From NCBI RefSeq assembly GCF_041361465.1, contig NZ_JBGKAC010000002.1:124001-188000 (forward strand): DNA of 64,000 nt. Reading direction: 5' to 3'. The notes beneath the pieces were generated by a model. It saw only the letters and a program-made list of their open reading frames with translations. It had not been told where the DNA came from and made no database searches. Position numbers and translations under genes: made by a program. Of the stretch, positions 47,238-53,600 are shown piece after piece; the first letter of the stretch is position 1; each line of letters begins with the position of its first letter. Origin of the DNA: Halobaculum sp. MBLA0143 (GTDB lineage Archaea > Halobacteriota > Halobacteria > Halobacteriales > Haloferacaceae).

Positions 47238-47385
47238 TGTCGTCCGGATCGGCGGACGACCGTCACCGTCGTCGAGGTGCGCCAGACGACTGTCACCGTC
47301 GTCCAAGTACGTCGGACGACCATCACAGTCGTCCGGATCGGCAGACGACCGTCACCGTCGTCGAGGCACGGCGGACGGCCCTCTC
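47238..47385 (+). repeat. About 30-bp imperfect tandem repeat, five copies
   Basis: Imperfect units of 29-30 bp built on cgtcgtc, a variable middle, then gacgaccgtcac. The copies differ at several positions, so it is older than the 25- and 27-bp arrays. It lies just upstream of the amidohydrolase start and of the first origin-box cluster. Confidence 0.8.
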
Positions 47386-47471: not shown

Positions 47472-47663
47472 ATTTCATTTCGCACACGGGGGGAAGAGTG
47501 GGTGTCGTCCGTGCTCACGTCCAGATTTCATTTCGCACACGGGGGGAGGAGTGGGTGTCGTTCGTACTCACGTCCAGATTTCATTTCGCACACGGGGTGT
47601 GGGGTGCCGACTCGACGGAGGTGTGAGACCGAACGCGGGGGCTTTTCATTTCGCACACGGGGG
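47472..47663 (+). promoter_or_regulatory. Origin-box-like repeat cluster A (four copies)
   Basis: Four direct copies of TTTCATTTCGCACACGGGG at 47472-47493, 47525-47546, 47578-47597 and 47643-47663. The first three are 53 bp apart and their spacers are alike (gtgggtgtcgt ... ctcacgtccag), so the actual repeat is a 53-bp unit. A degenerate half copy (ttacacgggg) is just upstream at ~47461. They end in a run of four to six G. Interpreted as Orc1/Cdc6 binding boxes from their repetition around the orc gene. Confidence 0.7.
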
Positions 47664-47666
47664 ATT

Positions 47667-48060
47667 CGAGGGTACCTATCGGCACAACGACGTTGCCCAC
47701 CGACGGGAGTGGTCGCCTTGACGGTGATGGGCGGCAGTCTCTCGGTCTGCGTGGGCACGACCACGGACGCCCGTGCGTTGTCGTCGGGGAGCTCGACGAC
47801 CCACTCGGCGCCCGCGGGTACTTGACGGAACGTACTGGAGTCGTCGACTCCGTCACGGTCTCCACAGTCGTCAGCCAACCCGGAGACCGCACGGATCGCC
47901 GTCGCCACCGACGGCGCGAACGACGACAGTTGGGTCGTCTCGGCCGAACGACCCAGTTCGTCGGCGTCGGCCACGTCGGCGACCCCGAGCGCGTACGGGT
48001 GGGCCGGACGGTCTGTGTCGTCTCGAAGTCCACTTGCTCGACTTCGAACACGTGGGTCAC
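47667..48060 (-). pseudogene. Frameshifted remnant of an unknown gene
   Basis: On the minus strand a GTG at 48060 opens a plausible start (THVFEVEQVDFETTQTVRP); after ~20 codons the coding signal passes to another frame: HPYALGVADVADADELG, continuing to AEWVVELPDDNARASVVVP and ERLPPITVKATTP. Codon choice in both parts is clearly haloarchaeal. The end then seems to change frame again (VGNVVVPIGTLESP) and runs into an origin box without a proper stop. It is probably a decayed gene; sequencing error could account for one shift. Function unknown. Confidence 0.4.
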
Positions 48061-48215
48061 GCCGGCGACACTCCAGGATGCCGCCCCGAGGGCACTCTGA
48101 AGGGAGCGCCTCCTCTTCGTTCCGTTCGTTTCTGGTGGTTCGATTTGGACTCAAATGGTTCTGCTCCGATCTGGTGTCGAGTAGTTCTGCTATCCGGTGT
48201 CTACTGCCGATCCAG

Positions 48216-48310
48216 TGTCGTGTCCGGTTCGTGAGAGCAGTGTCGTGTCCGGTTCGTGAGAGCAGTGTCGTGTCCGGTTCGTGAGAGCAGTGTCGTGTCC
48301 GGTTCGTGAG
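48216..48310 (+). repeat. 25-bp tandem repeat, nearly four copies
   Basis: The unit tgtcgtgtccggttcgtgag plus agcag occurs at 48216, 48241 and 48266, with a partial copy to 48310. The three full copies are identical, so the expansion is recent. No coding role is seen. The stretch 48061-48402 otherwise holds no gene. Confidence 0.95.
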
Positions 48311-48402
48311 ATGACCGATGGAGAGTTCGAACCCAGGAGGGAGACCGAGACAGTATCGGCGTCGTCTCACCACTGGGATTAGGTGGGACGAGATCGCGGT
48401 AC

Positions 48403-48750
48403 ATGGCTCTTGACTTCGGAGTCAAGACCTCCGATTCGCTGCACGCGAGTCTTCGAACGGCGATCGAACGGACCCTCGCGCTGGAATCGTGGGTTCCCCG
48501 TTCCCGTAGGCGGGTCGCCTCGGGAACGTTCGTTCGCCGCCACACACAGTTCGACTCGGCCGAAGAGTTCTGTACGGCCTGTCCGTGCGACGAGGATACG
48601 ATCGGCGGCGTTCAACGACTCTCGGCCGAACAGCGAGACGCGTTCGTCGCGCGGACGACTGACTTCGACGAGTGGACAGAGATGAAGCGGGCCGCAGCGA
48701 CCGAGGATCTCGTGACGCTGCAGAACGTACGATCACGTCGGTCCGAGTAG
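48403..48750 (+). CDS. Uncharacterised small protein with a Cys cluster
   Basis: A 115-residue acidic/basic mixed protein starting MALDFGVKTSDSLHASLRTA. It contains FCTACPCDEDT, a CxxCxC pattern that could bind a metal or form disulfides, then LSAEQRDAFVARTTDFDEW. Codon usage is compatible with a real gene. No family is recognised. Its last 18 bp overlap the convergent phosphate transporter gene. Its position beside the origin does not show any function in replication. Confidence 0.6.
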   Translation: MALDFGVKTSDSLHASLRTAIERTLALESWVPRSRRRVASGTFVRRHTQFDSAEEFCTACPCDEDTIGGVQRLSAEQRDAFVARTTDFDEWTEMKRAAATEDLVTLQNVRSRRSE

Positions 48751-49941
48751 CGCAGCGAGTATGTGGTAGAGTGTGAAGCTGATCACGCCACCACCGACCA
48801 TCGAGGCGACCCACGCTCCGATCGTGTACCCCGTCTTCGTGGCCGACACCCCGTCGGAACTCGACGAACCGCCGACCAACCCGGCTCCGACGATACTAGA
48901 GATCATCACCTTGTTGAACGAGATGGGATAGCCGAGAACGATCGCGGCCTGCGCGACGAGAAACGCGGGGACGAACGCGGCGATCGATCGCTTGGGGCCG
49001 AGCGAGGCGTACTCACGGGCCACTGCCTGAATGAGACGCGGCGACCGGACCCAGCCACCGAGGAGAATGCCGAGCCCCCCGAGCCCGAGCAAGTACAGTG
49101 AGGGTAGACCGAGCGACGACTCGAAGACGGATTCTAGTGGTCCGGTGGCGAGGCCCACCTGCGAGCCGCCGCTGGTGAACACGACGACGAGGGCGAGCGC
49201 GATCAACATCCTGTTGATCCCGGTCGTCACGTCACGCCGGAGTTGCCAGTAGACCGTGGCCGCGACGAGAACTCCGATCGCGCCCCCGACGAGGACGACT
49301 CCGGCCTCGCCACCCCCTGTCGACGCGACATCGAGCCGGCGAGTGACGACGCCCGCGATCGACCCGTAGTCGTTCTGCGGGGCTGGGAGGAACGAGAGCT
49401 GGATGTTGGCGAGTGCGTAGCCGACACCGCCGGCGAGGAGTGGGACGCTCAGTGTGTCCGAGACTGTGTCGTCCAGCAACAGCCACGCGAGACCGTACGC
49501 CAGGACACCCTCGACGACGGGGATGGCGAACCAGAAGCCCAGGATCCTGGCGTAGGTCGCAACCGCGAAGCCACCGCCGAGAGCGACACCCGCACCGACC
49601 GCAGCGCCGGTGACGGTGAACGCCGAGGGGATCGGATAGCCACGAGAGTTCCCGATGGTGATGAGCGTCGCTGCCGTGAGGAGCGTCGCAGTGGCGGCCA
49701 ATGGGGTGATCGTCACGCCGGTCACCAGTCCGTGGCCGATGGTCTCTGAGATGCTGCCACCTTGTGCGATAGCCCCGAGGGCGGCGACGACACCGACCAG
49801 CAGCGCCCCTCGTAAGGTCGACAGCGCGTTCGCCCCGACGGCTGGCGCCATCGGAGCAGAGTTGCTGTTTGCTCCGACGGTGAAGGACATGAACAGCGAT
49901 GCGACCAGCGCGACGACGACGACGCCGAGTGCTGAGAACAT
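48733..49941 (-). CDS. PiT-family inorganic phosphate transporter
   Basis: A 402-residue membrane protein with about eleven helices. The two PiT signature repeats are GANSNSAPMAPAVGANALSTLRGALLVG near the N-terminus and FLVAQAAIVLGYPISFNKVMISSIVGAGL near the C-terminus; the Asn and Pro/Ser positions match the family, though the usual GANDVANA core is altered. It would take up phosphate (or a related anion) with a cation. The start at 49941 (MFSALGVVVV) is preferred, since the extra upstream 15 residues are Arg-rich and cross an A/T-rich promoter. Confidence 0.87.
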   Translation of the reverse strand: MFSALGVVVVALVASLFMSFTVGANSNSAPMAPAVGANALSTLRGALLVGVVAALGAIAQGGSISETIGHGLVTGVTITPLAATATLLTAATLITIGNSRGYPIPSAFTVTGAAVGAGVALGGGFAVATYARILGFWFAIPVVEGVLAYGLAWLLLDDTVSDTLSVPLLAGGVGYALANIQLSFLPAPQNDYGSIAGVVTRRLDVASTGGGEAGVVLVGGAIGVLVAATVYWQLRRDVTTGINRMLIALALVVVFTSGGSQVGLATGPLESVFESSLGLPSLYLLGLGGLGILLGGWVRSPRLIQAVAREYASLGPKRSIAAFVPAFLVAQAAIVLGYPISFNKVMISSIVGAGLVGGSSSSDGVSATKTGYTIGAWVASMVGGGVISFTLYHILAALLGPT

Positions 49942-50454
49942 ATATCGATTCAGAATGAACCCTACTCGTCGACGCGATTCTGGCACGCCACACTCTCCAA
50001 CAGATACGTATGATTCTGTCGGTAGCGTTCGTCTGTATCCCGGTGTGCGTCCGTCCTGCCGCGTACATCTGTATCTCGGTGTTCACCGTACCCGCGTCTC
50101 CAGTGTGTGTATCTGTGTTCCCCGTCGAGAGAAGGTAGCCGTGGCTGCGGAGGCGTTCCTCGTCGTGGTGTCGATTGTCTCGCTCGAGTTCGTCCTCGCC
50201 CGGCACGGGTAGTCTCGACTTGCGGTCGTCGTGAGCACGTGACACGGCTCGCGGCGTGGGCAGCGAGAGCGGGCCCGACGTCGGGACTCTCGGGGGGCAC
50301 ACACCAGATTTCCGGAGAGTGAGCCGGCTGCCGGTCCTCGGACACCAGACACAGCCTCACGATACTCCGTCGGAGAACTGTGCGATCACGGAACTCGTCC
50401 GAGGCGATCACCGCGAGAGCCAGGCAGTCGTGGCGCGACGTGAGAACGCTCGGG
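49942..50454. other. Intergenic region between phosphate transporter and origin boxes
   Basis: About 510 bp with no convincing gene. It contains weak near-repeats of ctgtatc-cggtgt (50030-50110) and a short hydrophobic frame on the plus strand (AEAFLVVVSIVSLEFVLARHG, ending 50212) without an evident start. It probably includes the promoter of the phosphate transporter. Confidence 0.4.
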
Positions 50455-50594
50455 ATTTCATTTCGCACACGGGGGGTAGACGGGGGACGACACGGCGGCG
50501 GTCACCGGTGAAGCCGGCCGCACACGTCCGAAAAGAGGCGTCGAGGGAGTCGGTGGAGGCCCGCAACCCCCTCCCCCCGTGTGCGAAATGAAAT
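50455..50594. promoter_or_regulatory. Origin-box-like pair B in opposite orientation
   Basis: One plus-strand copy at 50455-50476 (ATTTCATTTCGCACACGGGG) and one minus-strand copy at 50573-50594, with their G-strings facing each other 96 bp apart. The minus copy is the only inverted one in the window and lies immediately left of the A+T-rich stretch, which makes this the most origin-like segment. Confidence 0.72.
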
Positions 50595-50649
50595 CGGGCA
50601 GAGGGAGGGGGGTGGGGTAGAGCGGCGGATGCGGCCGCTGAGGGCGGCA

Positions 50650-50775
50650 AGTGGAAATTAGACCCGTATCAGGTGCTAAAAGACGAATTTCTACGATTAG
50701 GGAAAAGAAACTATTGTCACACGAACCTTTTTCACTTAGGTTGTTCAAAAGTGTCCGTAGTACCTAGATTTTGAC
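50650..50775. other. A+T-rich candidate DNA unwinding element
   Basis: A stretch including gtggaaattagac, gctaaaagacgaatttctac, ggaaaagaaactattg and cctttttcacttaggttg is far richer in A+T than anything around it and has no reading frame. It lies between the inverted box at 50573-50594 and the direct boxes at 51092-51221, whose G-strings point away from it. Haloarchaeal origins usually have an unwinding element flanked by inverted boxes, and this fits. The same stretch could also carry a promoter. Confidence 0.65.
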
Positions 50776-50919
50776 GCAGACACGGGGCGCGGGGACGTGT
50801 CTGCGTCAACTTCGTCGCTCCTTCTCCGAGCGGTGTTCCAGTTCCGTGACTTCCGCCTAGTAGTCGTCCGCGTTCCGTGGCCTCTGCACCGATCGCCCAT
50901 TCACTGACCGTACGTGTAG

Positions 50920-51000
50920 TGTTCGACCGGTCTACTGCACTGTTCGGCCGGTCTACTGTACTGTTCGGCCGGTCTACTGTACTGTTCGGCCCGTTTATCA
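50920..51000 (+). repeat. 21-bp tandem repeat, three full copies and part of a fourth
   Basis: The unit tgttcggccggtctactgta plus c occurs at 50920 (with small changes), 50941 and 50962, then a partial copy to ~50992. It contains the short palindrome ggccgg. It lies between the A+T-rich stretch and box cluster C, in iteron-like fashion. Confidence 0.92.
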
Positions 51001-51091
51001 GACGAGTACGACACGATCACGGGAGAGAACGGCTGTTCACAAACCAGTCTGTTCGGCTTCTCCTGGTCCCCCCTCCCCCCGCTCACGACGG

Positions 51092-51221
51092 ATTTCATTT
51101 CGCACACGGGGGGAGGGGGTGGCCACCCCCCATGCCTCTGTCCTGATTTCATTTCGCACACGGGGGGAGGGGGTGGCCGCCCCCCCTGCCACTGTCTCGA
51201 TTTCATTTCGCACACGGGGGG
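51092..51221 (+). promoter_or_regulatory. Origin-box-like repeat cluster C (three copies)
   Basis: Three direct, perfect copies at 51092-51113, 51146-51167 and 51200-51221, exactly 54 bp apart. Spacers are related and contain a G/C palindrome (gggggtggccaccccc or close) right after the G-string. A degenerate box (tcacttcgcacgcaggagg) lies at 51442-51463, just before the end of the orc gene. Confidence 0.75.
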
Positions 51222-51249
51222 AGAGGGTGGCCGCCCCCCTGTTCCCGCG

Positions 51250-51438
51250 CAAACGACTATCCCTCGTGTCCTCGTCCAAACGACTATCCCTCGTGTCCTC
51301 GTCCAAACGACCGTCCCTCGTGTCCTCGTCCAAACGACCGTCCCTCGTGTCCTCGTCCAAACGGCCGTCCCTCGTGTCCTCGTCCAAACGGCTGTCCCCC
51401 GTGATCTCGTCCAAACGGCTGTCCCCCGTGATCTCGTC
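51250..51438 (+). repeat. 27-bp tandem repeat, seven copies
   Basis: Unit caaacgaccgtccctcgtgt plus cctcgtc. Copies start at 51250, 51277, 51304, 51331, 51358, 51385 and 51412. Small changes grade along the array (actatc, accgtc, ggccgtc, ggctgtc), and the last two copies share cccgtgat. Located between box cluster C and the 3' end of orc1/cdc6. Confidence 0.95.
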
Positions 51439-51474
51439 CAGATGTCACTTCGCACGCAGGAGGTCCGCCGACGC

Positions 51475-52818
51475 CTACCGTTCGAGAAACTCCGAGACCT
51501 GCGCGTCGACGACCGACTCGATCAGTTCCTTGTTGTCCGTTATCTCGTCCATCCGTATCCCCTTCTCCAACGTCTCCATCACCGTCTTCGGGTCGTCGAC
51601 GAACGAGTACTCCTTGTGAACCCCGCTGCCGTACCCGTGGCCCTCTGTCTTAGAGACGACGAAGTTGTACGTCTCCGACTCGCTCAGATACCGGAGGTAA
51701 GTGTCCCGCGACTTCTGATCGATGTCCACGAGGTCGGCGAGGTACTGGTAGACGTCGTAGCCGAGAGTGTTCGGAACCGCGTCGAGCTGATCGTCGAAGA
51801 CCGAGACGACCGCTGCTGAGTACAGCGCGAGTTTCTTCTGTGCCGACAGTCCGCGCATCTGCGTCAGCGTCCGGTCACGCGCCGCCTCCTCTTGGGCCTC
51901 GCGGACGTGATCCTCCAGAACGGTGTTGTCACCGTGCCGGTCTGCGAGCTCCCCAGCCTTCCGGAAGAGGTCGATCGCCTTCCGCGCGTCACCGTGGTCC
52001 TGTGCCGCGTGCGCCGCGCTGAGGGGGACGACGTCGTCCCCCAAGACACCGTCGCGGTAGGCGTCTCGCCGGTAGGTCAGGATCGATCGGAGTTCGTTCG
52101 CGTCGTAGTCGGGGAACGTGACGTCTTCCGGGTTGAACGAGCTCTCTGCCCGACCGTCGAGGTCCTCCATGAACCGAGGGTCGTTCGTGAGCGCGGCGAC
52201 AGAGATCCGGCTGTCTATCTCACCGACCTGCGCCGTCCGAGACAGTTGGTAGAGGAGCTTGGAGTAGCCGGGTTCGGACCGCTGGTCTCGCGTCCGCCCG
52301 GTCAGGAGGTCGATCTCGTCCAGTATGATGATCCCCGAGTCGAACTCCTCGTCGAGAATCTCGTACAGTCGGCTCAGTTTGTGGTCGGTCGAGACGCCCG
52401 TCTGTGGGACTTCCGGCTCGACCCCGGCGGACTCGGCCGCGCTCTCGACGAGTCGATAGACTGCACGGTCGTGGGTGCTGATAGTCTGGCAGTTGATATC
52501 GATCACGCCGAACCGATCCCCCTGATTCACCGCGAGCGCCTCGATCTGCTGACAGACCGCGTTGATGATGAGCGACTTCCCCGTCCCCGAGGGCCCGTAC
52601 AGGAGGAGGTTCGGCGGGCGGCTCCCACGAAGAGCGGGCTGGAGGGAGTTGATGACGTCGTCCAACTGCTGGTCACGACCGACAATCCGGTCTTCGTCGA
52701 TAACCCTGTCGGGGTTGAGCAGGCTCTTGTCCCGAAAGACGGTGTTCTGCGTCCCCTCTTCGAGACGGCTCTTGATAGACTGTGAGGAGACCCCGTCTTC
52801 GGTCCCGTCGCTGACCAT
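51475..52818 (-). CDS. cdc6: Orc1/Cdc6 replication initiator
   Basis: A 447-residue initiator ATPase that recognises origin boxes and helps load the MCM helicase. Walker A is YGPSGTGKS, Walker B IIILDEIDLL, sensor-1 is in ISVAALTNDPRFM, and the sensor-2/lid region continues to HGDARKAIDLF. The C-terminal ~100 residues form a winged helix (GYDVYQYLADLVDIDQKSRDTYLRYL). The opening NPDRVIDEDRIVGRDQQLDDV is typical of Orc1/Cdc6. The ATG at 52818 is chosen over upstream extension because a TATA box lies ~22 bp before it. Boxes lie both downstream and upstream, so it probably binds its own flanking DNA. Confidence 0.95.
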   Translation of the reverse strand: MVSDGTEDGVSSQSIKSRLEEGTQNTVFRDKSLLNPDRVIDEDRIVGRDQQLDDVINSLQPALRGSRPPNLLLYGPSGTGKSLIINAVCQQIEALAVNQGDRFGVIDINCQTISTHDRAVYRLVESAAESAGVEPEVPQTGVSTDHKLSRLYEILDEEFDSGIIILDEIDLLTGRTRDQRSEPGYSKLLYQLSRTAQVGEIDSRISVAALTNDPRFMEDLDGRAESSFNPEDVTFPDYDANELRSILTYRRDAYRDGVLGDDVVPLSAAHAAQDHGDARKAIDLFRKAGELADRHGDNTVLEDHVREAQEEAARDRTLTQMRGLSAQKKLALYSAAVVSVFDDQLDAVPNTLGYDVYQYLADLVDIDQKSRDTYLRYLSESETYNFVVSKTEGHGYGSGVHKEYSFVDDPKTVMETLEKGIRMDEITDNKELIESVVDAQVSEFLER

Positions 52819-52839
52819 ACCGACCGGTGACTCCGGATG

Positions 52840-52850
52840 TATAAATAACC
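52840..52850 (-). promoter_or_regulatory. TATA box of orc1/cdc6
   Basis: The minus strand reads ggttatttata, 22 bp before the ATG at 52818, giving an essentially leaderless transcript as is usual in haloarchaea. It is the clearest TATA element in the window. Confidence 0.7.
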
Positions 52851-53064
52851 ACAGGACCGCGTGCGACATCAAATCTCCCGAATACTGGACTACTGGAGCA
52901 TTAGCTCCACTCACTGTGAGTGAACCACTACACCGTATGCGAAGTCTATCTCGACTCCGGGGAAGCACCACTGCCGAATCGAGCCCGTTCTCGACACGGT
53001 GTACCACCACCGGATGGCCTCGACCAGCGACGCGAACGGCTCTCTACGCCCGGCGACCGCCTGG

Positions 53065-53403
53065 ATTTTCATTTCGCACACGGGGGGTGGCGTGGCTCTC
53101 GCCCGCCTCCCAGTCCAGACTTTCATTTCGCACACGGGGTGTGGGGGGTGACTGTCACTCGTGCTCCCGTCCGGATTTCATTTCGCACACGGGGGGCCGA
53201 CCGCCACTCGGGTTCCCGTCCGAATTTCGTCTTGCACACGGATCGACCCCACCTGTGTTCTCATCTGAACTTGGCCTCGCACACGGGCCCGACCGCCACT
53301 CGGGTTCTCGTCCGAATTTCATCTTGCACACGGGGGGTGAGACGTCTCTTCTACGGAGGTGTGAGGCGCCAACGGCAGATATTTTCATTTCGCACACGGG
53401 GGG
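53065..53403 (+). promoter_or_regulatory. Origin-box-like repeat cluster D (four good and three degenerate copies)
   Basis: Good copies lie at 53065-53087, 53119-53139, 53175-53196 and 53382-53403; degenerate ones at ~53223-53241 (tttcgtcttgcacacgg), ~53267-53288 (ggcctcgcacacggg) and 53316-53337 (tttcatcttgcacacgg). All point in the plus direction. Spacing between neighbours is about 45-66 bp. Spacers again share sequence (ctcgggttctcgtccg). The cluster occupies the region upstream of orc1/cdc6. Confidence 0.72.
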
Positions 53404-53501: not shown

Positions 53502-53600
53502 GTCGACGGACACACAACCTGACCTCTGTGTATCGACTCACACACAACCCGACCTCCGTGCGTCGACGGACACACAACCCGACCTCCGTGCGTCGACGGT
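53502..53600 (+). repeat. 30-bp tandem repeat, three copies plus a partial
   Basis: Unit gtcgacggacacacaacccg plus acctccgtgc. Copies start at 53502, 53532 and 53562, and a partial one ends at ~53600. It lies between box cluster D and the ABC transporter ATPase gene. No coding function is seen. Confidence 0.92.

Follow-up and report, generated by a model that had tools for sequence, protein, structure and literature searches.

Archaeal origins generally work through Orc1 bound at divergent boxes, where it opens an AT-rich stretch of DNA and loads MCM. Haloarchaeal Orc families are linked to specific origin recognition boxes (ORBs), and ORB families ending in a G-string have already been described (PMC3528665). 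The G-strings are essential in oriC1 of Haloarcula hispanica, and oriC2 of the same organism is restrained by a downstream ORB cluster that titrates its Cdc6 (PMC3936714). Autonomously replicating sequence (ARS) activity has been found for oriC6-cdc6I and oriC7-cdc6J of the minichromosome (PMC4441112, PMC3528665), and pHH126 was split from this 489-kb minichromosome, the Cdc6G and Cdc6H of the minichromosome being incomplete (PMC4441112). The locus analysed here, an orc1/cdc6 gene with clusters of a 19-base box on both sides, lies in a 64,000-nucleotide stretch (C2:124001-188000, hereafter the window) of Halobaculum sp. MBLA0143, whose 3.58 Mb genome consists of contigs C1 (2.99 Mb) and C2 (589 kb); positions are those of the window unless a contig is named. 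We consider it likely that this locus is an orc1/cdc6-linked origin of the 589-kb secondary replicon and belongs to an initiator-box family that is widespread among haloarchaea. Rather than representing a new origin class, it is of a known kind, initiator-specific and conserved, and is a variant in the orientation of orc1 and in the wing of its product.

The box and its Orc1 clade

Thirteen exact copies of the box, TTTCATTTCGCACACGGGG, were found in the window, 12 on the plus strand and one on the minus strand, together with one copy carrying 2 mismatches (53317), all within 47473-53401; 100 dinucleotide shuffles of the window yielded none. The copies form four clusters (47473-47662, 50456-50593, 51093-51219 and 53067-53401), three of which contain tandem arrays with a period of 53-54 bp. 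A first-pass annotation of this DNA had described multiple copies in four clusters flanking orc1/cdc6, as is the case, although its count of 11 direct boxes and one inverted box was slightly low. It had also seen the motif nowhere else in the 64 kb; with up to 3 mismatches allowed, the whole genome contains a single match outside the window, TTTCACTTCGCACACGGCG, with 2 mismatches at C2:295320-295338, and the reversed pattern of the box, used as a control, matched nowhere in the genome. At up to 6 mismatches, two extra degenerate boxes in step with the array (53225, 53270) and three weak boxes around orc1 (51443 on the plus strand, 52855 and 52931 on the minus strand) were detected, with just three weak matches in the rest of the window (10177, 46991, 48037). 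Like the box at C2:295320-295338, single copies at a great distance from orc1 but on its replicon also occur in some relatives (G265:C3:253244, G191:C4:188034 and G060:C1:37312); all of these are possibly distant titration sites.

The occurrence of the box follows a particular Orc1. Among 392 genomes of the order, 59, counting the source genome, have a same-clade Orc1 with 63-73% identity to the window Orc1, and all 59 contain the box at up to 1 mismatch, compared with 18 of the 333 genomes lacking such a protein, 14 of which have one match each (Fisher p ~2e-54, with no correction for kinship). Relatives of the window Orc1 are found in many genera and are often plasmid-borne. In the Orc1 tree, where clades I, II, III and V come out as single groups, the window protein falls into group I, which is one side of a branch with support 90/95, and its row is long and stands outside any starred set; the box of clade I, TTTCATnTCGCACACGGGG, is that found in 13 exact copies here and in 59/59 clade genomes. 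At the level of sequence, these comparisons show that the box is linked to this Orc1 family. The earlier suggestion of an initiator with its own specificity, for which a search for the motif beside close Orc1 relatives across haloarchaeal genomes had been advised, is thereby supported. The idea of a box peculiar to the source organism was rejected, as it is present in relatives, and the viral contigs searched for the box gave no match. A literature search for the motif letters gave no haloarchaeal match among the papers listed; the motif may already be printed in the lists of boxes that supplement Wu et al. 2012.

Comparison of the clusters shows constraint on the boxes, which were kept while the spacers diverged: the 13 boxes are identical across clusters, and spacers match one another at 71% on average versus 70% when shuffled. 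When the far-left cluster was aligned with the right-hand one, identity extended to 70 of the 73 columns in boxes and to 95 of the 126 in spacers (75%); the two are therefore probably old duplicates, and the far-left cluster, on the other side of pho4, was not copied recently. This cluster is an extra one, seen in the window only. Among the boxes of relatives (n = 497), positions 4, 5, 8, 12, 17 and 19 are essentially invariant, and positions 1 and 7 are variable. The total in the span scanned at all loci, 10 boxes, is within the range of the relatives (mean 7.6, maximum 11). Exact boxes in the same span number 9, whereas relatives average 1.0 and reach at most 5, a count biased toward the window because the exact consensus was derived from it; by a measure independent of the choice of consensus, boxes of the same origin differ pairwise by 0.4 on average in the window, among the three lowest values (median 1.94). 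Such homogeneity is not confined to the window, since a Haloquadratum relative (L158) likewise has identical boxes. Helical phasing of the box spacing is not claimed, the resultants of 0.27-0.37 being weak and the data non-independent.

Layout of the locus and orientation of orc1

The layout was compared with that of 71 relatives with distinct Orc1 proteins (72 loci including the window), each locus being oriented by its orc1. All 71 share a single order: inverted box or boxes, AT-rich DNA, 2-4 direct boxes, orc1, and direct boxes again. The inverted boxes number one or two and were not seen in two loci, one of which is ended by a contig edge, and the AT-rich stretch is present in most loci. 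The window has the same succession, from the inverted box at 50575 through the AT-rich stretch and the direct boxes at 51093, 51147 and 51201 to orc1 on the minus strand and the right-hand direct cluster, which is homologous in place to the cluster following orc1 in relatives (Table 1). Features by which Wu et al. 2012 recognised origins are present as well, namely G-string boxes repeated in intergenic DNA adjoining orc/cdc6 and inverted boxes, here 50575 (minus) and 51093 (plus), around an AT-rich stretch (50640-50760). The divergent origin class proposed in the first-pass annotation must accordingly be given up, as the same box and layout recur in 71 relatives from many haloarchaeal families and the boxes of paralogous clades share their register; its picture of many direct boxes and one inverted is real, but it is the norm of the family. 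The unusual points that it missed are the reversed orientation of orc1 and the altered DNA-binding wing.

Only in the window is orc1 inverted inside the conserved box frame, whereas in 71/71 relatives it points away from the core, along the direct boxes; this regularity was derived in the present analysis and is not a published criterion. Relative to the locus of a same-genus relative (L074), the core aligns in the same orientation and orc1 in the opposite one (51500-52785 versus 12998-11710). The weak box TTTGATGTCGCACGCGGTC next to TTATTTATA in the orc1 promoter has counterparts in the promoter of that relative, TTTGATATCGCAGGCGGT and TTTGATCTCGCAGACGGT, and therefore promoter and gene lie together in the flipped orientation. 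Gene and promoter box were probably flipped in place in the source lineage. No long inverted repeat able to mediate the flip or to cause a misassembly flanks the orc1 segment, and because only short imperfect inverted arms (e.g. 26 nt, 73%) span it, no mechanism of the flip is proposed. At the threshold applied, a clade I Orc1 was absent from two further genomes of the genus. Left of its core, the same-genus relative has a second orc1-like stretch with boxes (L074:8449-9946; 71% nucleotide identity over 1.2 kb) with apparently broken frames, which we regard as a decayed duplicate initiator.

Table 1 Features of the origin region in window coordinates, with the basis of each assignment.
Feature	Position	Strand	Basis
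Far-left cluster on the other side of pho4, exact direct boxes at 47473, 47526, 47579 and 47644	47473-47662	+	Motif scan
Lone exact direct box left of the core	50456-50474	+	Motif scan
Sole inverted box, left arm of the divergent pair framing the core	50575-50593	-	Aligns with the inverted box of L074
AT-rich stretch, probable unwinding element	50640-50760	.	55-67% A+T (60-bp windows) versus 34% in the surrounding 13 kb
Right arm of the core, 3 exact direct boxes (51093, 51147, 51201), 54-bp step	51093-51219	+	Alignment with L074, same orientation
orc1/cdc6 gene, 447 amino acids	51475-52818	-	Profile match, layout comparison
Weak box TTTGATGTCGCACGCGGTC in the orc1 promoter, adjoining TTATTTATA, same orientation as the gene	52855-52873	-	Counterparts in the L074 promoter
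Right-hand cluster, exact boxes 53067, 53121, 53176 and 53383, near copy 53317, degenerate 53225 and 53270	53067-53401	+	Motif scan

Five short tandem arrays unrelated to the box are also located in the intergenic DNA of the origin region, at 47250-47377, 48213-48311, 50915-50991, 51250-51440 and 53502-53599, with periods of 30, 25, 21, 27 and 30 bp, respectively.

The initiator and the possible activity of the origin

The most likely mechanism is as follows. Each box would be bound by Orc1, with the winged helix on TTTCATTTCGCAC and the AAA+/initiator-specific motif (ISM) part on the G-string; at the divergent pair 50575/51093, Orc1 would open the stretch 50640-50760 and load MCM, giving rise to bidirectional replication. 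The outer clusters, 47473-47662 and 53067-53401, are probably titration sites which, by analogy with oriC2D in H. hispanica, would take up surplus Orc1 and limit initiation. The weak promoter box at 52855-52873 is a probable autoregulatory site.

The orc1/cdc6 product matches TIGR02928 with an E value of 8e-115, above the curated cut-off, and is ~30-40% identical to the products of the other Orc genes of the source genome; among solved structures, those nearest to it are 2v1u and 2qby, archaeal Orc1 proteins bound to DNA. In an AlphaFold2 model (mean predicted local distance difference test score, pLDDT, 76.5, with the wing loop below 50), residues 391, 392 and 394 are located at or beside the loop between strands 387-392 and 401-406, that is, in the wing, and all three are substituted in the window Orc1 (K391T, R392E, R394H). 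The helix before the wing, which contains R371 and R376, should read the box. In Orc1 of Aeropyrum pernix, R367 and R369 lie near ORB DNA, and Saccharolobus Orc1-2 lost its function and specific binding when the corresponding pair was mutated (PMC9738581); the A. pernix arginine spacing fits an SRGR motif, aligned with RGRG of the clade with a one-residue ambiguity. The window Orc1 evolves fast and has lost basic residues of its wing, probably since the flip.

Several points weigh against an origin at this locus. Arginine is present at positions 392 and 394 in all 64 relatives covering these sites and is absent from the window Orc1. The GC skew of the replicon is weak, and its extremes fall at 204.5 and 479 kb, away from 175 kb; as proof of activity, however, skew is uninformative here, and equally so on pHH126. 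The same replicon has a second complete origin candidate ~52 kb away (C2:227760-229900, about 40 kb right of the window end), where orcB (228198-229340, minus strand) encodes an intact wing, VNRGRSGG, and is accompanied by 11 boxes (reverse complement form GAACACATGAAACAGTGGGGTGGGG), five of them in a 69-bp array, resembling TAACAGCGGAAACAGTGGGGTGGGG of Wu et al. 2012. Finally, a misassembly around orc1 might conceivably be behind the apparent flip, although the box clusters on either side are direct repeats, which alone would not yield an inversion. Elsewhere on C2, an orc1 fragment with an in-frame TGA (C2:502448-502705, 56% identical over 88 residues) lies 2.5 kb from TTACAGTCATCTGTT repeats (about C2:499.9-500.3 kb), and the two are probably remains of another origin.

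Alternatively, the locus could be a dormant or decaying origin, in which Orc1 came under weaker selection after the flip and lost its wing contacts, replication being carried out from the orcB origin (C2:228 kb) and the boxes persisting as leftovers or as a brake. Such decay would account for the long branch of the window Orc1 (0.51 versus 0.11 for L074), for changes at 23 of 228 near-invariant clade positions compared with 4 in L074, and for the three wing substitutions; an intact second Orc1 with its own 11 boxes on C2 fits as well, and H. hispanica is known to have dormant origins whose initiators are broken (PMC4441112). Nevertheless, the frame of 447 codons is open, and the ratio of nonsynonymous to synonymous substitution rates (dN/dS) relative to L074 is ~0.19 (0.185/0.975), so the window orc1 is still under purifying selection. 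The Walker motifs, R371 and R376 are kept, and the persistence of 13 perfect boxes among spacers that have diverged speaks for continued use. On balance, we find dormancy unlikely, though worth serious attention. As a further reading, the loss of wing contacts after the flip might have been offset by more near-perfect boxes and the extra outer cluster, origin strength being set by the number and quality of boxes, not by initiator affinity; this compensatory remodelling is a tentative proposal of rather low probability.

The presence of boxes in the promoter of orc1, and of others well away from the core, would also suit a protein that has become a DNA-binding regulator, similar to the non-initiator Orc1-2 of Saccharolobus, the boxes then having mainly a regulatory or titrating role; in non-initiators, the winged-helix arginines that contact the ORB are stated to be missing from the equivalent positions (PMC9738581). 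The divergent pair and AT-rich core are intact, however, and other genes of the genome have virtually no boxes, so that we hold such a role to be quite improbable. As for clustered regularly interspaced short palindromic repeats (CRISPR) or a mobile tandem repeat unrelated to replication, which identical 19-bp repeats with a regular 53-54 bp period might bring to mind, the chance is negligible and the candidate was rejected as contradicted by the co-occurrence with Orc1: the repeat tracks the Orc1 clade in 392 genomes and has a fixed layout around orc1 in 71 relatives, the spacers within one cluster are related to each other, and viral contigs contain no matches.

Related clades and known origins

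In more distant Orc1 clades the box is a different one that keeps the register, namely TTTACACATCGATGACGGGG (~54% Orc1 identity), GTTACAAGTCGACAACGGGG (53%), GAACACATCGATAGAGG (~50%), and CTTACAACTCGAAAACGGGG and GATACAATCAGCAAATGGGG (~49%); TTnCAnnTCGnnnACGGGG is the form common to the boxes of most clades, and the box cores of the other clades are CATCGATG or TCGA. The window box is thus one member of this initiator-box series, which agrees with the linkage reported between haloarchaeal Orc families and ORBs (PMC3528665). Clade II origins (box TTTACACATCGATGACGGGG; e.g. L079, L080) share with the window the box register and a core at the 3' side of orc1, but differ in the Orc1 itself (~54% identity), in the palindromic core CATCGATG, and in the upstream cluster, which is directed toward orc1 there and away from it in the window. 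Some clade II orc1 genes (L080, L162, L163, L077) have, beside their own boxes, single clade-I-like boxes (e.g. TTTCATTTTGCACACGGGG) ~350-500 bp upstream, which possibly reflect cross-talk or are remains.

As the box and layout constitute a common haloarchaeal plasmid and minichromosome origin type, the locus is mainly a new member of it. With several Orc1 clades whose boxes stand in one register and differ by few bases, the Orc1-ORB recognition code becomes directly testable. The locus further amounts to an experiment of nature: a single lineage turned its initiator gene around, altered the DNA-contacting wing and kept perfect boxes, which raises the question of whether the function of an origin depends on the orientation of the gene and on the contacts of the wing.

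Among described systems, archaeal oriC1 with the classic ORB resembles the window in the G-string at the box end and in boxes flanking an AT-rich stretch next to orc1; the TTCC...GGAA-type dyad that precedes the G-string in the classic ORB is absent from the window box, as the first-pass annotation had correctly stated. The oriC2-cdc6E origin of H. hispanica with oriC2D (PMC3936714) has, like the window, a core and an ORB-rich cluster that are separated by the initiator gene; the box-rich regions apart from the core are here 53067-53401, across the initiator gene, and 47473-47662, beyond pho4. The Orc/ORB family is presumably a different one, and titration is established genetically there and inferred here. 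A further related system is pHH126 of H. hispanica N601, whose sole intact Orc1 (WP_014030725), accompanied by a truncated orc, belongs to the window family and is very probably, by exclusion, Cdc6I or Cdc6J; derivation of pHH126 from pHH400 (cdc6K) was rejected, as the papers show a split from the minichromosome. This origin, hence very probably oriC6-cdc6I or oriC7-cdc6J, has an Orc1 68% identical to that of the window, the same box (one exact copy and variants), and the same succession of an inverted box, direct boxes upstream of orc1 and direct boxes downstream. It differs in that its exact boxes are fewer, its wing arginines are present, and its orc1 points away from the core, whereas that of the window points toward it.

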